Source of the DNA: Pseudomonadota bacterium
Lineage (GTDB): Bacteria; Myxococcota_A; Bradymonadia; UBA4248
Direction of reading: 5' to 3'
Length of the DNA: 64,000 bases
NCBI GenBank assembly: GCA_017464085.1
Contig: JAFUEE010000071.1
Span: 1 to 64,000, forward strand
The translations under genes and the position numbers were made by a program. The notes below the pieces were generated by a model, which was given only the letters and a program-made list of their open reading frames with translations, was not told the DNA's origin and searched no databases. Below are positions 1,677 through 7,886 of the stretch, in pieces (position 1 is the first letter of the stretch; each line of letters starts with the position of its first letter).

Positions 1677-4600
1677 ATGGATGAACACCGTCAGCGAGAA
1701 TCCCTGAGTTTTGAAAAAGCAAGCAAGAAAAAACAAAGATCGCGATACCTCGCATGGAGCATCGACAACCCGCTCCTCGTCATCACAAGCATCGTCCTCA
1801 TGATGCTGGCCGTCATCTTCATTGTCGGCAGCAATTTCGAAAGCAGAAGCTCGCAGATCGAAAAAACTGAAATCGGAACAATCGCATCGCACGATTACAA
1901 GGCACCGCGAGACTTCACGTTCGACAGGATTGACCAGGAAGCCACCGAAAAAATCCGTGAACAGCGCGTGGCTGAGGTACTTCCCATCTTCAAATGGGAC
2001 AGCAACTATCAGGATGCAACGCTCAGCAAGTTCCGCTCGGCATTCGAATTCATGCGCAACGGCATGGACAGCGAGCGCATGCGGCTCGAAGACTCTCATG
2101 TGCAGAAGGACACAAAGACGCTCATCGCCTCCGAAAACGCACAGCATCAGGCATGGGCAAACGCACTCCTCGCGCCTTTCAAAGACGAATCAGTTTTTGA
2201 AAACTATATCTCCACGCGAAAACTCACCGACGAGGAAATCGCTTCGGCGCTGGTCGCATGGTGCAGCACACAGCGCCAGGCTTTCGAGCAAAAACTCGGC
2301 TACGATATGCCGGATGACCTGTTCGCATGGCTAGTCTCCGAAAGCTTCTCCTACGATCTGGAAGAAGCACTCATACAGATCTTCGATGTCACGCTCGGAC
2401 GCATCACGGTCTCAAACCGCATCGAAATCGACGAACTCGACGCCTTCGTCATGCAGTGGTTCGATGCCGGCGAAAAACGACAGAAACGCATCGACAAGAG
2501 CGAAAAAGCGAGCATCCTTTCCAGACAGTCCAGCGAGACGCTCACTCAGACTCTGCTGCGCGAAAAATTTCCGCATGCGCCCGAGTCGTTCGTCAGCTAT
2601 TTCAAGCAGTTCGTGCGCACAAATCTCGAATACGACGAAACAGCCACCCAGCGCGAACGACAAAATGTCAGCGAAAAAACTGCCGAGCTACGCGTGATCG
2701 AAGAGTTCAAAAAGGGGCAGACAATCGTCGCAAGGGGAAATCCCATACGGCAAGTGCACTACGAAATCTTTGAAAAACTCGCGCAGAGCCAGTCAGACTA
2801 TGACAACCGGACCGGCCACTGGGGCGCGCTCGGCATCATCGCTGTCCTGATATCATTCCTCTGCCACAGGTCCATCAAGGCCTCCACTGGAAGGCGCAAG
2901 AAAAACAGAGATGTCATGTTCCTCGCGACGAACATCCTCCTCTTCTCTATCTTCCTCAAGCTCTTCACGGTCATCTGCGGCGCACTCGACTCGGTCTACC
3001 ACTGGCCCTATTCCATGCTGCTTCTCTTCCCGTTCGCAAGCTCCCCAATGGTCATGCGGATTGTCGTCAACCGCTATTACGCCTACCTGTTCTCCGTCTG
3101 CAGCATCATCCTCACAGGCCTCATCATCGAAGACCTCAGCATCATCCTGCCCTACGGCATCATCAGCACAATGGCCGGATGCCTGCTCATGGAACGCCCC
3201 AAGCGAAGCAACATCCTCATGCAGCGAGGCATCATGATCGGATGCGTCTCCGCGCTCGCGGCGCTCGCGCTCTACATCTTCAGAGGCGCAAACCTCACGC
3301 AGCTCGACTATGCCATCACCGCACTGCTCGGCTTCGCCAGCGGCATGCTCTCCACCGGCGTCGTCACCATGGGGCTCCCGCTCTCTGAAAGCACTTTCGG
3401 ATATGTCACATCCAACAAGCTGCTCGAACTCTCAAACCTCGAACACCCTGCGCTCAAAACGCTCTTCCTCGAAGCCCCAGGCACTTACCAGCACTCCATC
3501 ATGGTCGGCTCGCTCAACGAAGCAGCCGCTGAAGCCATCGGCGCAAACGCCATCCTCGCGCGCGTCGGCGGCTACTACCACGATATCGGCAAAGTCAAAA
3601 ACGCTCAGTACTTCGCCGAAAATCAGCGCGGCGACAATCCACACAACCGCATCAAACCAAACATGAGCGCCCTCATCCTCAAGGCGCATGAACGCGACGG
3701 ACTCGATATCGCAAAAAAATATCATCTCCCGCAAGATATCATGGAATTCATCGCTACGCACCATGGCACAAGCCGCATCGAGGTCTTCTACCAGCGCGCC
3801 AAGGAAAACGCAAAAGACCAGCAGGACCGCGTACACGAAGAAGATTACAGATACCCCGGACCCAAACCGCAAACACGCGAAACAGGCATCTGCATGGTCT
3901 CAGATATGGTCGAGGCCGCCGTCAGGTCGCTCCCTGACAAAAGCCCTGACAAAATCCTCGTCCTCGTCCGAAAACTCATCAACCACAAGTTCACGGAAGG
4001 CCAGTTCGACGAGTGCAATCTCACACTCAAAGACCTCAATGATATCGCAAATGCTCACCTGAGCATCCTCAATGCATTCTATCACCACAGGCCTGAATAC
4101 CCTGATCAGAAAAAGGAACGCGAAAAACTTGAGGCCAAGAAACGCGAAAAACTTGAAGCCGAAAAAAATGCTCAGAACGCAAAACAACCTCAGACAGACA
4201 AGCGTTCCGAAGATGAAAAAAATACTCGCGAACTCTCCCTCTCAAAAGTAATGACTGCCCTGCAGAGCGATTCACCTGATATTAAAGAAAAACAAACCAA
4301 AGACAGCAAAGAAAAAACAGACAATATCAAAGATAAATCTAATAATAATCCAAAAGACAAATCAGATCCCAAAGAAAAAACAGACAATATCAAAGATAAA
4401 TCTAATAATAATCCAAAAGACAAATCAGATTCAAAAGAAAAGCCAGACAATATCAAAGATAAATCTAATGAAAATGACAAAGATAAATCAACAAATAACA
4501 AACCTGATAACAGCAACCCCGACAGCAATAAGGACAAATCCGATAAAACCAAATCCAAGTCTAATAAAAAATCAGATAAATCCCCCGACACAGATGACGA

Positions 4601-4826
4601 GCCGAGAAGGTCCCTCAACTCCCTGACACTTGCCACTCAGCTGGAAACTGAAGAAGTCAACGTGCTGCTCAAAGAATCCGAGGAAGCCGAAACTGCATCC
4701 GAGGCCGCTGTAAAATCGGATAAAAAGGATGCCATCCCCGCTGAGGCACAAGACCTCCCGCAGCTCCACACAGACTCATACGATCTTGCATTCTCAAGCA
4801 AAGTCGATGTGTTCAAAAAGAGCTAG
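1677..4826 (+). CDS. pgpH: 7TM-HD hydrolase, c-di-AMP phosphodiesterase type (PgpH/YqfF)
   Basis: 1049 residues. One membrane segment at about 31-52 is followed by a large extracytoplasmic 7TMR-HDED domain (about 60-380), a bundle of membrane helices (about 383-570) and a cytoplasmic HD phosphohydrolase domain (about 600-790) with His606, the His635-Asp636 pair and a later ATHHGT motif. Family members hydrolyse c-di-AMP to pApA. The last 255 residues are unusual: highly charged, rich in Lys, Asp, Ser and Asn, and containing three 21-residue repeats, so probably disordered. The usual family length is about 700-870. The Shine-Dalgarno GCGAGG precedes ATG 1677. It probably forms an operon with phoH. 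Confidence 0.93.
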   Translation: MDEHRQRESLSFEKASKKKQRSRYLAWSIDNPLLVITSIVLMMLAVIFIVGSNFESRSSQIEKTEIGTIASHDYKAPRDFTFDRIDQEATEKIREQRVAEVLPIFKWDSNYQDATLSKFRSAFEFMRNGMDSERMRLEDSHVQKDTKTLIASENAQHQAWANALLAPFKDESVFENYISTRKLTDEEIASALVAWCSTQRQAFEQKLGYDMPDDLFAWLVSESFSYDLEEALIQIFDVTLGRITVSNRIEIDELDAFVMQWFDAGEKRQKRIDKSEKASILSRQSSETLTQTLLREKFPHAPESFVSYFKQFVRTNLEYDETATQRERQNVSEKTAELRVIEEFKKGQTIVARGNPIRQVHYEIFEKLAQSQSDYDNRTGHWGALGIIAVLISFLCHRSIKASTGRRKKNRDVMFLATNILLFSIFLKLFTVICGALDSVYHWPYSMLLLFPFASSPMVMRIVVNRYYAYLFSVCSIILTGLIIEDLSIILPYGIISTMAGCLLMERPKRSNILMQRGIMIGCVSALAALALYIFRGANLTQLDYAITALLGFASGMLSTGVVTMGLPLSESTFGYVTSNKLLELSNLEHPALKTLFLEAPGTYQHSIMVGSLNEAAAEAIGANAILARVGGYYHDIGKVKNAQYFAENQRGDNPHNRIKPNMSALILKAHERDGLDIAKKYHLPQDIMEFIATHHGTSRIEVFYQRAKENAKDQQDRVHEEDYRYPGPKPQTRETGICMVSDMVEAAVRSLPDKSPDKILVLVRKLINHKFTEGQFDECNLTLKDLNDIANAHLSILNAFYHHRPEYPDQKKEREKLEAKKREKLEAEKNAQNAKQPQTDKRSEDEKNTRELSLSKVMTALQSDSPDIKEKQTKDSKEKTDNIKDKSNNNPKDKSDPKEKTDNIKDKSNNNPKDKSDSKEKPDNIKDKSNENDKDKSTNNKPDNSNPDSNKDKSDKTKSKSNKKSDKSPDTDDEPRRSLNSLTLATQLETEEVNVLLKESEEAETASEAAVKSDKKDAIPAEAQDLPQLHTDSYDLAFSSKVDVFKKS
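4312..4480 (+). repeat. 63-bp in-frame tandem repeat in the pgpH tail
   Basis: Starts at 4318, 4381 and 4444 show a 63-bp period, giving 21-residue units around DNIKDKSN and PKDKSD. The third copy is partly diverged. The period is a multiple of three, so gain or loss of a unit keeps the frame. Confidence 0.85.
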
Positions 4827-4879: not shown

Positions 4880-4951
4880 AATGCCTTTCTTTGGGAAGGG
4901 GGTGTGGTGGAAACCCTTTCTTTTGGCACAAAAGAAAGGGTTTCCCCCACG
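4880..4951. repeat. Long GCA-loop hairpin, copy A
   Basis: A 22-bp inverted repeat has arms at 4904-4925 and 4929-4950 (one mismatch) and loop GCA at 4926-4928. A flank at 4881-4903 contains an imperfect extra copy of the CCTTTCTTT motif. The same element occurs at 22024-22093. It lies between the convergent pgpH and the RelA/SpoT-fold gene, about 30 bases past the stop codon of the latter. There is no adjacent T-run, so a terminator role is uncertain. Confidence 0.85.
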
Positions 4952-4981: not shown

Positions 4982-5599
4982 CTAGGCAGCTGCGCGCATG
5001 CGGGCTTTGTATGCCTCATGTTCGGCTTCCGCATTCAGGTGCATCTGTGTCGTTCGGATCTGGAACTCCACGCGTTTTTCCTCGACTTCTGCCACCACAT
5101 GAAGGCTCTGATAGCCGGAGGCTTTCGGGGCAACGATATAGTCTTTCATGGTGCCGGGCACGACCGTGTATGTATCACAGATCATGTTCAGGCACTGATA
5201 GGCATCGAGCTCGTTGCTGACAACGACGCGCATGCCATAAAGGTCATTCAGAGACATCATGTCGACGCCCTTGCGCGCAGCTTTTTCACGCGCGCTGTCC
5301 TCAGCTTTCACGCGGCTGTAAACCGTCACATTGCGGACACCGCGAGACCTCAAATTCTGAGCCAGCCGCGTCGCTCTGCCGCTCAGCCACGAGGATTCCA
5401 CCTCCCTCCAGGTCCCCATCTGGGGCGTCGTGCGCGTCTCTTCTGAGGGAAGCACGCGCGAATTCACAGGCCGGATCTGAGGGTCACCTCCCGAGACCGC
5501 AAATAGCAACGCAAATAAGATAAATGCAAGAAACGAAAACCCCTGCTCATACAGGTGACGGGAAAACTTAAAAAGCTCGCTGATTTTGTCTGTTCGCAT
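4982..5599 (-). CDS. Small RelA/SpoT-fold nucleotidyltransferase with N-terminal membrane/export segment
   Basis: 205 residues from ATG 5599, which has the strong Shine-Dalgarno AGGGAG; an upstream in-frame start at 5752 has none. Residues 20-36 are strongly hydrophobic. From about residue 90 the protein is a single (p)ppGpp synthetase domain with an RxK...S...K motif, DLYGMRVVV, SGYQSLH and VEFQIRT, so the residues known to bind ATP/GTP and metal appear intact. HD hydrolase, TGS and ACT domains are absent, as in small alarmone synthetases. Positive charges lie before the hydrophobic segment, so by the positive-inside rule the catalytic domain would face outside the cytoplasm, which is odd for an alarmone synthetase. 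Activity and location are inferred. Confidence 0.85.
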   Translation of the reverse strand: MRTDKISELFKFSRHLYEQGFSFLAFILFALLFAVSGGDPQIRPVNSRVLPSEETRTTPQMGTWREVESSWLSGRATRLAQNLRSRGVRNVTVYSRVKAEDSAREKAARKGVDMMSLNDLYGMRVVVSNELDAYQCLNMICDTYTVVPGTMKDYIVAPKASGYQSLHVVAEVEEKRVEFQIRTTQMHLNAEAEHEAYKARMRAAA

Positions 5600-5856
5600 G
5601 CTCTCTCCCTGTAGTGGTCGCTCTATTCCCAGCCTTCGGCTGTCACTTATCTTAAACACTTTATCCAGCCCAATCCATTCCGCATGCGGAATTTTTTGAA
5701 CACATCCACTTTGTGCACGCTTCTTTGCTTGACAAGTCAAAAAAACAGTCATTCAATCCATCGGTTCCGCTGCCTGAAAACTTTCAGCGCATCACGCTGA
5801 CCAGGAAGCGGAAAACAACGGCCGATCCCCGGCCACTTTTTTCAGGGGAAGCACAC

Positions 5857-7011
5857 ATGCCGGATAAGGATCTTCTCAGCCTTTGGAACTCGCATCTGAA
5901 ACACTCAACCTCTGACGGCTCCCCCCAGAATGCATCTGTTCAGCCATCAGAACAGCCACCTTCGGACGACAGACCTGAAAAAACAAAACGAGTGCCCGAG
6001 CTGCACAAGGCAGACGCATCCCCTCAAGCGCAGACAATGCCCGATAGCGCCACGGCACCCGAAAAATCTTTTCGCGCCGCCCCGCTGCTCAGCGGCAGAA
6101 TCGCAGACTACCTCAGCGCACAGACGCCTCGCAAAATCTCCTCAGAACTGATCCCTGCCACAGACCAGAACACACCATGGATCGTCTCTGACCCGAAATC
6201 AAAGCTGTCGCTGGCGACTGCACTCATCCTCACGGCCAACCTCGCGCGCTTCTCGGGCACGGCACTTCCCGAAACCCAGCTCATCAAAGCACGCGACGAA
6301 CTCATGCGCACGCTCAGCGCAAAAGATGCCGTCAATGCTGAAGTCGAAGCATACGATATACTCAACTGGCTGGCTGGCGCGCTCAATGAAAATCTCAGAA
6401 AATCAGATGCCCCAGATGAAACAATCCCATGCTGCCCCGAAACCACCGAAGCCGCGCTCATCGACATCCTTCAAGATGCCATCCGCCACAAGCGCGACAT
6501 CACCATGCGGTATTACACCGGCTCACGCGGCGCTTTTTCCGAAAGACGCATCTCCCCGATAGAAATCACAGCCGAAAAATACCTCATCGCTTTCTGCCAC
6601 GTCCGCAATGAAGAACGCGTCTTCAGGCTCACTCGCATCGTCAGCCTCGTCCCCATCCCCAACCCCGGCGAAGCTCAGCAAGATCTGCTCTGCTATCCAA
6701 ACACCAAGGATATCGAACTTCCGCCACTTCCAAATCCCCCAGCACCTGCCCCCAGACATGACAATACGGACAACTCACGTCCGACACGGCACAGGCGCCG
6801 ATCACGCGCTTCACAAAATGCCTCAGGCTCAAAAAAACAAACAAAGTCTGCCACATCACCCCAAAACAACAAACCACCAGCCGCTCAAGGCGATTCGAAC
6901 CAGACACGGACGCTCTTTGATCTCATCGACGACTCACACACCACAAAATCTCCCCCAAAAAAGAAACGCTCCTCCAAAACACGCTTCCTCCCCGGCCTGC
7001 TTCCTGACTGA
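5857..7011 (+). CDS. WYL-domain protein without a recognisable HTH
   Basis: 384 residues from ATG 5857, preceded by AGGGGA; the frame continues upstream to 5713 without support. Residues 1-75 are polar and low in complexity. A helical region at about 80-200 is followed by a WYL-type domain (about 215-275, with ITMRYY, RRISPIEI and FRLTRIVSL). The C-terminal 100 residues are Pro-, Lys- and Ser-rich and basic. WYL domains sense ligands, often nucleic acids, and normally follow a DNA-binding HTH, which I do not see here. The gene converges on the Ppx/GppA-like gene with an 8-bp gap. Confidence 0.75.
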   Translation: MPDKDLLSLWNSHLKHSTSDGSPQNASVQPSEQPPSDDRPEKTKRVPELHKADASPQAQTMPDSATAPEKSFRAAPLLSGRIADYLSAQTPRKISSELIPATDQNTPWIVSDPKSKLSLATALILTANLARFSGTALPETQLIKARDELMRTLSAKDAVNAEVEAYDILNWLAGALNENLRKSDAPDETIPCCPETTEAALIDILQDAIRHKRDITMRYYTGSRGAFSERRISPIEITAEKYLIAFCHVRNEERVFRLTRIVSLVPIPNPGEAQQDLLCYPNTKDIELPPLPNPPAPAPRHDNTDNSRPTRHRRRSRASQNASGSKKQTKSATSPQNNKPPAAQGDSNQTRTLFDLIDDSHTTKSPPKKKRSSKTRFLPGLLPD

Positions 7012-7019
7012 ACGCGCCC

Positions 7020-7826
7020 TCAGGCACCAAAATGCTCAAAAATCCAGCCATGACGGATTCCAAAGGTGCTCACGTACACCGGCAACCCGAGCCGCTCACT
7101 CAGATCATTGACGAGCACACGGCCGGCCTGCGCCGCAAGACTCTCCGCCGCCCCGCATGCCAAAACACTCAGCCCCTCCACGCCGCCAGGCGCTGACACG
7201 CCAAGCGATTCCATCGCATACGTCGTGAACGAACTTCCCGCAGCCACGACAAACGCCGCGCGCACGCAGCCAAGTTCCCGCTCAAGCGCGCCGATCATCT
7301 CTGCACACACATCCTCAGACGCGCCCTGAAGCATATCGATCAGACGATGCTGACCAAAACCAAAGCTCTCCGCATATGCAACCGAGCCATCCGCACGAAT
7401 AATCGAACATTCCGTCGAACTTCCCCCCGAATCAATCAGCACATAAGCCTCTCCAGGCCGCGCCAATACTACACTTGAATGACGTATCGCAATCCGTTCA
7501 AGCTCCGCCTCACGCGACGCGCTCAAAATCTCAAGCGTCAGCCCCGCATCCGCAAACATCGACACAATCTCCGCACCATTGGCCGCCCTGCGCAACGCCT
7601 CCGTCCCAATGCAGCGACACGCCACTCCACCGCATGCCGACACAATATCCAGCACCGCCGCAATGTTGAACCGCACCGCATCGAGCGACATCACCCCATC
7701 CGTGCCGATATGCCGCCCAAGCTTCGTCTCCACACGCCAATTCTTCAAAAAATCACGCGTATCTGTCTCCACAAGCGACGCCTTCGTCGCATTCGATCCG
7801 ATATCAAAAATCAGAAAGTTACCCAT
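7020..7826 (-). CDS. Ppx/GppA-like exopolyphosphatase-family protein
   Basis: 268 residues with the actin-like ATPase fold of exopolyphosphatase/pppGpp phosphatase proteins. FDIGSNATK forms the N-terminal phosphate loop and VLIDSGGSSTE the second. Family members remove phosphate from polyphosphate or pppGpp. It is shorter than full-length Ppx (about 500) and has no HD-like C-terminal domain, matching the short Ppx/GppA group. ATG 7826 is chosen because MGNFLIFDIGSN matches the family N-terminus; a start at 7862 lacks a Shine-Dalgarno. A RelA/SpoT-fold gene lies 1.4 kb away, but no functional link is shown. Confidence 0.85.
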   Translation of the reverse strand: MGNFLIFDIGSNATKASLVETDTRDFLKNWRVETKLGRHIGTDGVMSLDAVRFNIAAVLDIVSACGGVACRCIGTEALRRAANGAEIVSMFADAGLTLEILSASREAELERIAIRHSSVVLARPGEAYVLIDSGGSSTECSIIRADGSVAYAESFGFGQHRLIDMLQGASEDVCAEMIGALERELGCVRAAFVVAAGSSFTTYAMESLGVSAPGGVEGLSVLACGAAESLAAQAGRVLVNDLSERLGLPVYVSTFGIRHGWIFEHFGA

Positions 7827-7886
7827 TTTGCCACTTTCCCACAACCTTGAAGTCTGAGACATTTTTACAAAGTCTAAATCCGCCCT

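Follow-up and report, generated by a model that had tools for sequence, protein, structure and literature searches.

We analyzed a 64,000-nucleotide stretch of DNA (here called the window; positions 1 to 64,000 of contig JAFUEE010000071.1, assembly GCA_017464085.1) from a bacterium of the GTDB lineage Myxococcota_A; Bradymonadia; UBA4248. At positions 4982 to 5599 on the minus strand lies a gene for a 205-amino-acid, membrane-associated RelA/SpoT-fold synthetase. The open reading frame (ORF) runs from an ATG at 5599 to a stop at 4982, and its translation, which begins MRTDKISELFKFSRHLYEQGFSFLAFILFALLFAVSGGDPQ, matches PF04607 (E value, 5.6e-26); its nearest solved relatives are the synthetase (SYNTH) domains of Rel and RelA. 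A ribosome-binding site, GGGAGAG, lies upstream of this ATG (5603 to 5609, minus strand) and is identical in G002, a genome of the same genus; the homology to G002 begins at this ATG. An alternative upstream start is possible in the window genome (ATG at 5752; 256-amino-acid ORF). Between the synthetase gene and the gene convergent with it, a 22-nucleotide inverted repeat (4904 to 4950; 95% complementary, 3-nucleotide loop) is a likely terminator. A consensus scan for a sigma-70-like promoter found none and was uninformative. We rejected the possibility that the gene is a piece of a longer Rel gene or the product of an assembly break: it is a complete gene that has a start of its own and a likely terminator, and the genome holds a separate, complete bifunctional HD-SYNTH Rel with an intact HDVVED motif.

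The protein can be divided into four parts, all encoded on the minus strand. Residues 1 to 19 (5543 to 5599) form an N-terminal tail with four lysines or arginines (K/R), a predicted helix at residues 4 to 18, and a probable location in the cytoplasm. They are followed by a hydrophobic transmembrane or signal segment, GFSFLAFILFALLFAVSGG (residues 20 to 38; 5486 to 5542), a variable, disordered linker (residues 39 to 62; 5414 to 5485), and the synthetase domain (residues 63 to 205; 4985 to 5413). An AlphaFold model based on an alignment of seven sequences, the window protein and its six homologs (see below), had a predicted local distance difference test score (pLDDT) of about 95 for the domain, a helix at residues 22 to 35, and a disordered linker at residues 37 to 60 (pLDDT < 50).

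The initial annotation, made from the sequence alone, had placed a strong hydrophobic segment at residues 20 to 36, and this was borne out for residues 20 to 38. The best 15-residue Kyte-Doolittle mean within them is 2.83. When the whole protein was shuffled 20,000 times and the hydropathy peak was sought in the first 60 residues, this value was equaled by 4 shuffles (1 to 47 of 20,000 across the seven family members). Every one of the seven has an uncharged segment of 16 to 21 residues with a 15-residue mean hydropathy of 2.4 to 3.05. Between the window gene and its homolog in G002, the ratio of nonsynonymous to synonymous substitution rates (dN/dS) was 0.04 in the segment (19 codons only), 0.30 in the linker, and 0.036 in the domain. 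The low ratio in the segment, where purifying selection is as strong as in the domain, together with the family-wide hydropathy, shows that the segment is translated and that selection maintains its hydrophobic character. A chance hydrophobic stretch is ruled out by the shuffles, the presence in seven family members, and the dN/dS. The initial annotation had also raised a start codon downstream of the segment. Such a start is unlikely, because Met61, the sole methionine able to start a segment-free window protein with the whole domain, is absent from the orthologs, even from one that is 89% identical, and because of the dN/dS of the segment.

The match to RelA_SpoT (PF04607) covers residues 95 to 199 with a score of 91.5 bits (curated cut-off, 27). 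In a phmmer search of PDB sequences, the protein matched the Rel/RelA synthetase domain 1vj7 (E value, 4.4e-14), while a profile of the family came closest to 5iqr (E value, 9e-23); a Foldseek search with the AlphaFold model ranked Rel SYNTH structures first (7oiw and 1vj7). Residues R96, K98, S102, K106, D119, R124, K159, Y163, H167, and E178 are invariant in all seven family members and correspond, in the same order and by alignment to 1vj7, to R241, K243, S247, K251, D264, R269, K304, Y308, H312, and E323 of RelSeq. The ATP-side arginine and lysine residues of RelSeq and the pair D264/E323 are thus all kept (R96, K98, S102, K106, D119, and E178). The catalytic residues are the pair D264/E323, and the loop that touches the guanosine ring has Y308, N306, and A335 as its key residues (PMC7983052). 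The trio K304, N306, and Y308 of this loop, which is an acceptor-site feature of long Rels and is not needed for membership in PF04607, is only partly present: K159 and Y163 are kept, and N306 is replaced by serine (S161 in the window protein) in all seven members. All 24 long Rels compared have asparagine at this position, and serine occurs in 4 of 12 other short and 1 of 2 receptor-like proteins from the phylum. An apparently intact synthetase domain had been reported for this protein; that description holds for the fold and the core catalytic residues but not for this one acceptor-site residue. By homology and structure prediction, we consider the protein to be a RelA/SpoT-fold synthetase with conserved catalytic residues that may be active.

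Homologs with an identical layout were recovered from G001 to G004 (same genus) and from G006 and G007 (same family), with 44 to 89% identity to the window protein. The gene was present in 7 of the 8 genomes of the family examined, as a single copy in those seven. The remaining genome, G005, had no match to it and none to the long Rel either, and a gap in the assembly probably explains this. Beyond the family, all ORFs that the nearest-relatives search returned encode long Rels, most of them roughly 720 to 790 amino acids in length, and a wider search of the phylum added further short RelA_SpoT proteins, none of which matched the N-terminal part of the profile. In the tree, the family grouped together with a support of 100/99 and lay apart from the clade of long Rels (98/97). 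The stem of the family was long (2.88 changes per column), with fast early change, and its placement among the short RelA/SpoT homologs (RSHs) was not settled (support, 26/78). A plasmid search returned only matches with <60% identity and <80% coverage, and the annotated ones were named relA or bifunctional Rel. The relatives come mostly from rumen and gut metagenome-assembled genomes, and the gene looks vertically inherited.

To which side of the membrane the domain is carried can be approached through the charges that flank the segment. Positive charges before it had been pointed out earlier; they are present but weaker than implied, as the four K/R of the tail are accompanied by three aspartates or glutamates (D/E; net charge, +1). 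The next 20 residues contain three K/R and three D/E (net charge, 0). Summed over the seven proteins, the tails hold 26 K/R and 11 D/E and the 20 residues after the segment hold 17 K/R and 23 D/E, with the N-side net charge more positive in six of the seven, strongly so in G001, G003, and G007. We applied the same count to two proteins from the window, RNase Y, whose family has its N terminus outside (N-out), and PgpH, whose family has it inside (N-in). Both behaved as expected (in RNase Y, 0 K/R precede the segment and 5 follow it; in PgpH, 6 precede and 2 follow). The totals over the seven proteins favor an N-in/C-out orientation, although the charges of the window protein taken alone scarcely do so, and the synthetase domain, whether anchored or cleaved, probably faces the periplasm. 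An uncleaved anchor is likelier than a signal peptide because the tail has 17 to 23 residues and the cleavage motifs of G006 and G007 are weak. Thus, of the outward-facing signal peptide or N-in anchor first proposed, the outward orientation is the best-supported reading, and the anchor fits the orthologs better than the signal peptide does.

Our preferred, though tentative, interpretation is that of a small alarmone synthetase with an uncleaved N-in anchor and its domain on the periplasmic side. The N-terminal hydrophobic helix would direct the synthetase to the membrane via the Sec/signal recognition particle route. The N terminus would stay cytoplasmic, and the domain, at the end of a flexible linker some 25 residues long, would be positioned on the periplasmic face of the membrane, to which it most likely remains tethered. 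With ATP as the donor, it could there pyrophosphorylate, at the 3'-OH, guanosine or adenosine nucleotides that enter the periplasm, for instance from lysed neighbors, and the product would be an extracellular alarmone. Export would also separate an unregulated synthetase from the cell's own GTP and ATP. Because N306 is replaced by serine in every family member, a periplasm-tethered pyrophosphokinase with an acceptor other than the usual guanosine nucleotide might also be proposed, one that senses lysis-released nucleotides of neighbors or modifies an envelope molecule; we consider this improbable.

Several observations weigh against an outward-facing anchor and would fit a membrane-tethered cytoplasmic synthetase, with an N-out tail, that makes (p)ppGpp near the membrane and perhaps answers to the state of the envelope. 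ATP and GTP, the substrates, are located in the cytoplasm, and the periplasm contains little of either. In the window protein, the two flanks carry nearly equal charge (+1/0), and in G002 the difference is slightly reversed (+1/+2). RNase Y has just such a topology, and RelA_SpoT proteins of a receptor-like type from this phylum appear to have two membrane helices followed by a synthetase domain that stays in the cytoplasm, so that membrane attachment alone is not proof of export. However, N-terminal tails of 17 to 23 residues with up to six K/R translocate poorly, and the charge pattern of RNase Y is opposite to that of the family, in which the N side is the more positive in all members but one. 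We therefore regard a cytoplasmic domain as somewhat unlikely. A cleaved Sec signal peptide would bring the enzyme to the same side as the anchor but leave it untethered, soluble in the periplasm or released. This would be the biology of SaEAS, an exported synthetase that loses its signal peptide during export (PMC12691689), and motifs resembling signal peptidase sites can be seen by eye in G003 (AFA/GS), G000, the window genome (AVS/G), and G004 (LYA/D). Yet the stretch ahead of the uncharged segment is long for a signal peptide, and G006 and G007 combine poor cleavage motifs with very hydrophobic segments, which makes cleavage rather doubtful. A catalytically inactive or degenerating remnant of Rel whose hydrophobic N terminus arose by chance would account for the long tree stem and the replaced N306, but it is hardly credible given the dN/dS of the domain (0.036) and the catalytic residues that are invariant in all seven members.

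It had further been suggested that the protein may be an effector delivered to other cells like Tas1, and that an immunity gene or secretion system should be sought. The synthetase gene is convergent with a PgpH gene (1677 to 4826; 7TM-HD) and divergent from a WYL-domain gene (5851 to 7011). G003 retains WYL-like and PgpH-like neighbors, and in G002 such genes also flank the synthetase gene, with one extra ORF (L003:8918-10333) intervening. A Kef-type antiporter is encoded next to the synthetase in G006 and G007, and in G001 and G007 an adjoining cluster encodes a universal-stress-like protein, a lipoprotein, and a WD40-like protein (all named from reading the sequences). The neighbors thus vary, and no small ORF recurs as an immunity or antitoxin partner in the loci of the seven genomes. 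The type VI secretion system (T6SS) sheath protein VipB (PF05943), the one secretion component searched for, had no match in the window genome, which is 94% complete, and a Pfam scan of the window protein found no effector or recognition domain. An interbacterial toxin of the Tas1/Apk1 kind would share the RelA/SpoT fold, and exported synthetases do inhibit growth when placed in the cytoplasm (PMC12691689). Against this stand the missing partner and VipB, the absence of an effector domain, the single conserved copy, and a sequence nearer to Rel than to toxSAS (FaRel2; E value, 0.67). We rejected a toxin-antitoxin pair or T6SS effector for want of a partner gene and of a VipB match in the window genome, and a delivered toxin, for which the genomes offer no support, is very improbable. 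The accompanying premise that known exported enzymes of this fold are toxins is out of date: a 2025 paper describes exported synthetases that carry signal peptides and have no immunity genes (PMC12691689). An isolated locus without an immunity gene, a feature by which exported alarmone synthetases are recognized, is what we observed here. A PADLOC match to PDC-S33 (E value, 2.7e-19) was set aside, as it rests on the common domain only.

Other features of the neighborhood were recorded. A Ppx/GppA-family protein of 280 amino acids (7020 to 7862, minus strand; PF02541; E value, 1.5e-12) is encoded two genes from the synthetase. We rejected a functional pairing because this gene lies beside the WYL gene in G002 and not in G003, where a peptidyl-prolyl isomerase-like ORF fills the slot beyond the WYL gene. 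A 63-bp tandem repeat (2.9 copies; 4307 to 4490, plus strand) encodes a repetitive tail of the PgpH protein rich in lysine, aspartate, and serine, and the PgpH-like protein of G003 has a different repetitive tail (SDKADK) in the same place. In G004, the gene convergent with the synthetase gene encodes a 2,195-amino-acid protein with repeated cysteine-rich units of the CGNG..CDG type (L037:1227-7814).

The closest parallel in the literature is the exported alarmone synthetases of Ahmad et al. (2025, mBio; PMC12691689), which have Sec signal peptides and lie in isolated loci without immunity genes. SaEAS of Streptomyces albidoflavus and VpEAS/RelV of Vibrio are described there as active enzymes that are toxic if retained in the cytoplasm; SaEAS is active outside, with a low Michaelis constant for ATP and GDP, and the proposed roles are sensing of nearby lysis or antagonism. 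In the window family, too, a hydrophobic segment of the Sec type at the N terminus precedes a SYNTH domain that stands alone, and the gene is isolated, with no immunity partner. The family differs in being nearest to the SYNTH domains of long Rels, in being probably anchored, and in its gut Myxococcota-type lineage. The terms Myxo, Bradymonad, and anchor are absent from the main text of that paper (PMC12691689). Neither 8VX3 (SaEAS), whose presence in the searched set was unchecked, nor 6OX6 (Apk1) was among our PDB matches up to an E value of 10. The window family looks like an unreported lineage of exported alarmone synthetases.

Among other RelA/SpoT-fold proteins, the Rel/RelA SYNTH domains of long RSHs (1vj7, 5iqr, and 7oiw) are the best sequence and fold matches and share D264, E323, Y308, and H312, but the window protein lacks HD, TGS, and ACT domains, has a membrane segment, carries serine for N306, and falls outside the long-Rel clade. 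RelP and RelQ (YwaC and YjbM; 6fgk and 5dec) are stand-alone SYNTH domains of similar size; they are soluble cytoplasmic proteins and match the family more weakly (E values, 1e-17 to 1e-10). The toxSAS proteins and the T6SS effector Tas1/Apk1 share the fold, and Tas1 acts away from its producer, but the window gene has no antitoxin or immunity gene or export domain.

Elsewhere in the phylum, three other families contain receptor-like RelA_SpoT proteins (L068 in G149, 540-amino-acid ORF; L066 in G080, 521-amino-acid ORF; L065 in G182). Their layout is a membrane helix, a presumed periplasmic part of about 120 residues, a second helix, a weak HAMP-like stretch (below the cut-off in L066; E value, 0.035), and an HD-less synthetase domain. 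They look like membrane receptors that would make alarmone on an outside signal. Short HD-less RelA_SpoT proteins of 170 to 290 amino acids also occur (L048, L049, L051, L052, L054 to L057, and L059). They have a short hydrophobic N terminus, several are from family f19, and L052 has the clear look of a signal peptide (STAYA/AVS); these proteins are possibly further exported synthetases.

Alarmone synthesis was long regarded as strictly cytoplasmic. If the domain of the window family faces outward, a Gram-negative gut lineage would provide a further form of exported synthetase, one that is Rel-like and anchored in the membrane. The retention of the gene in seven of eight family genomes suggests a role in housekeeping or sensing rather than that of a weapon.
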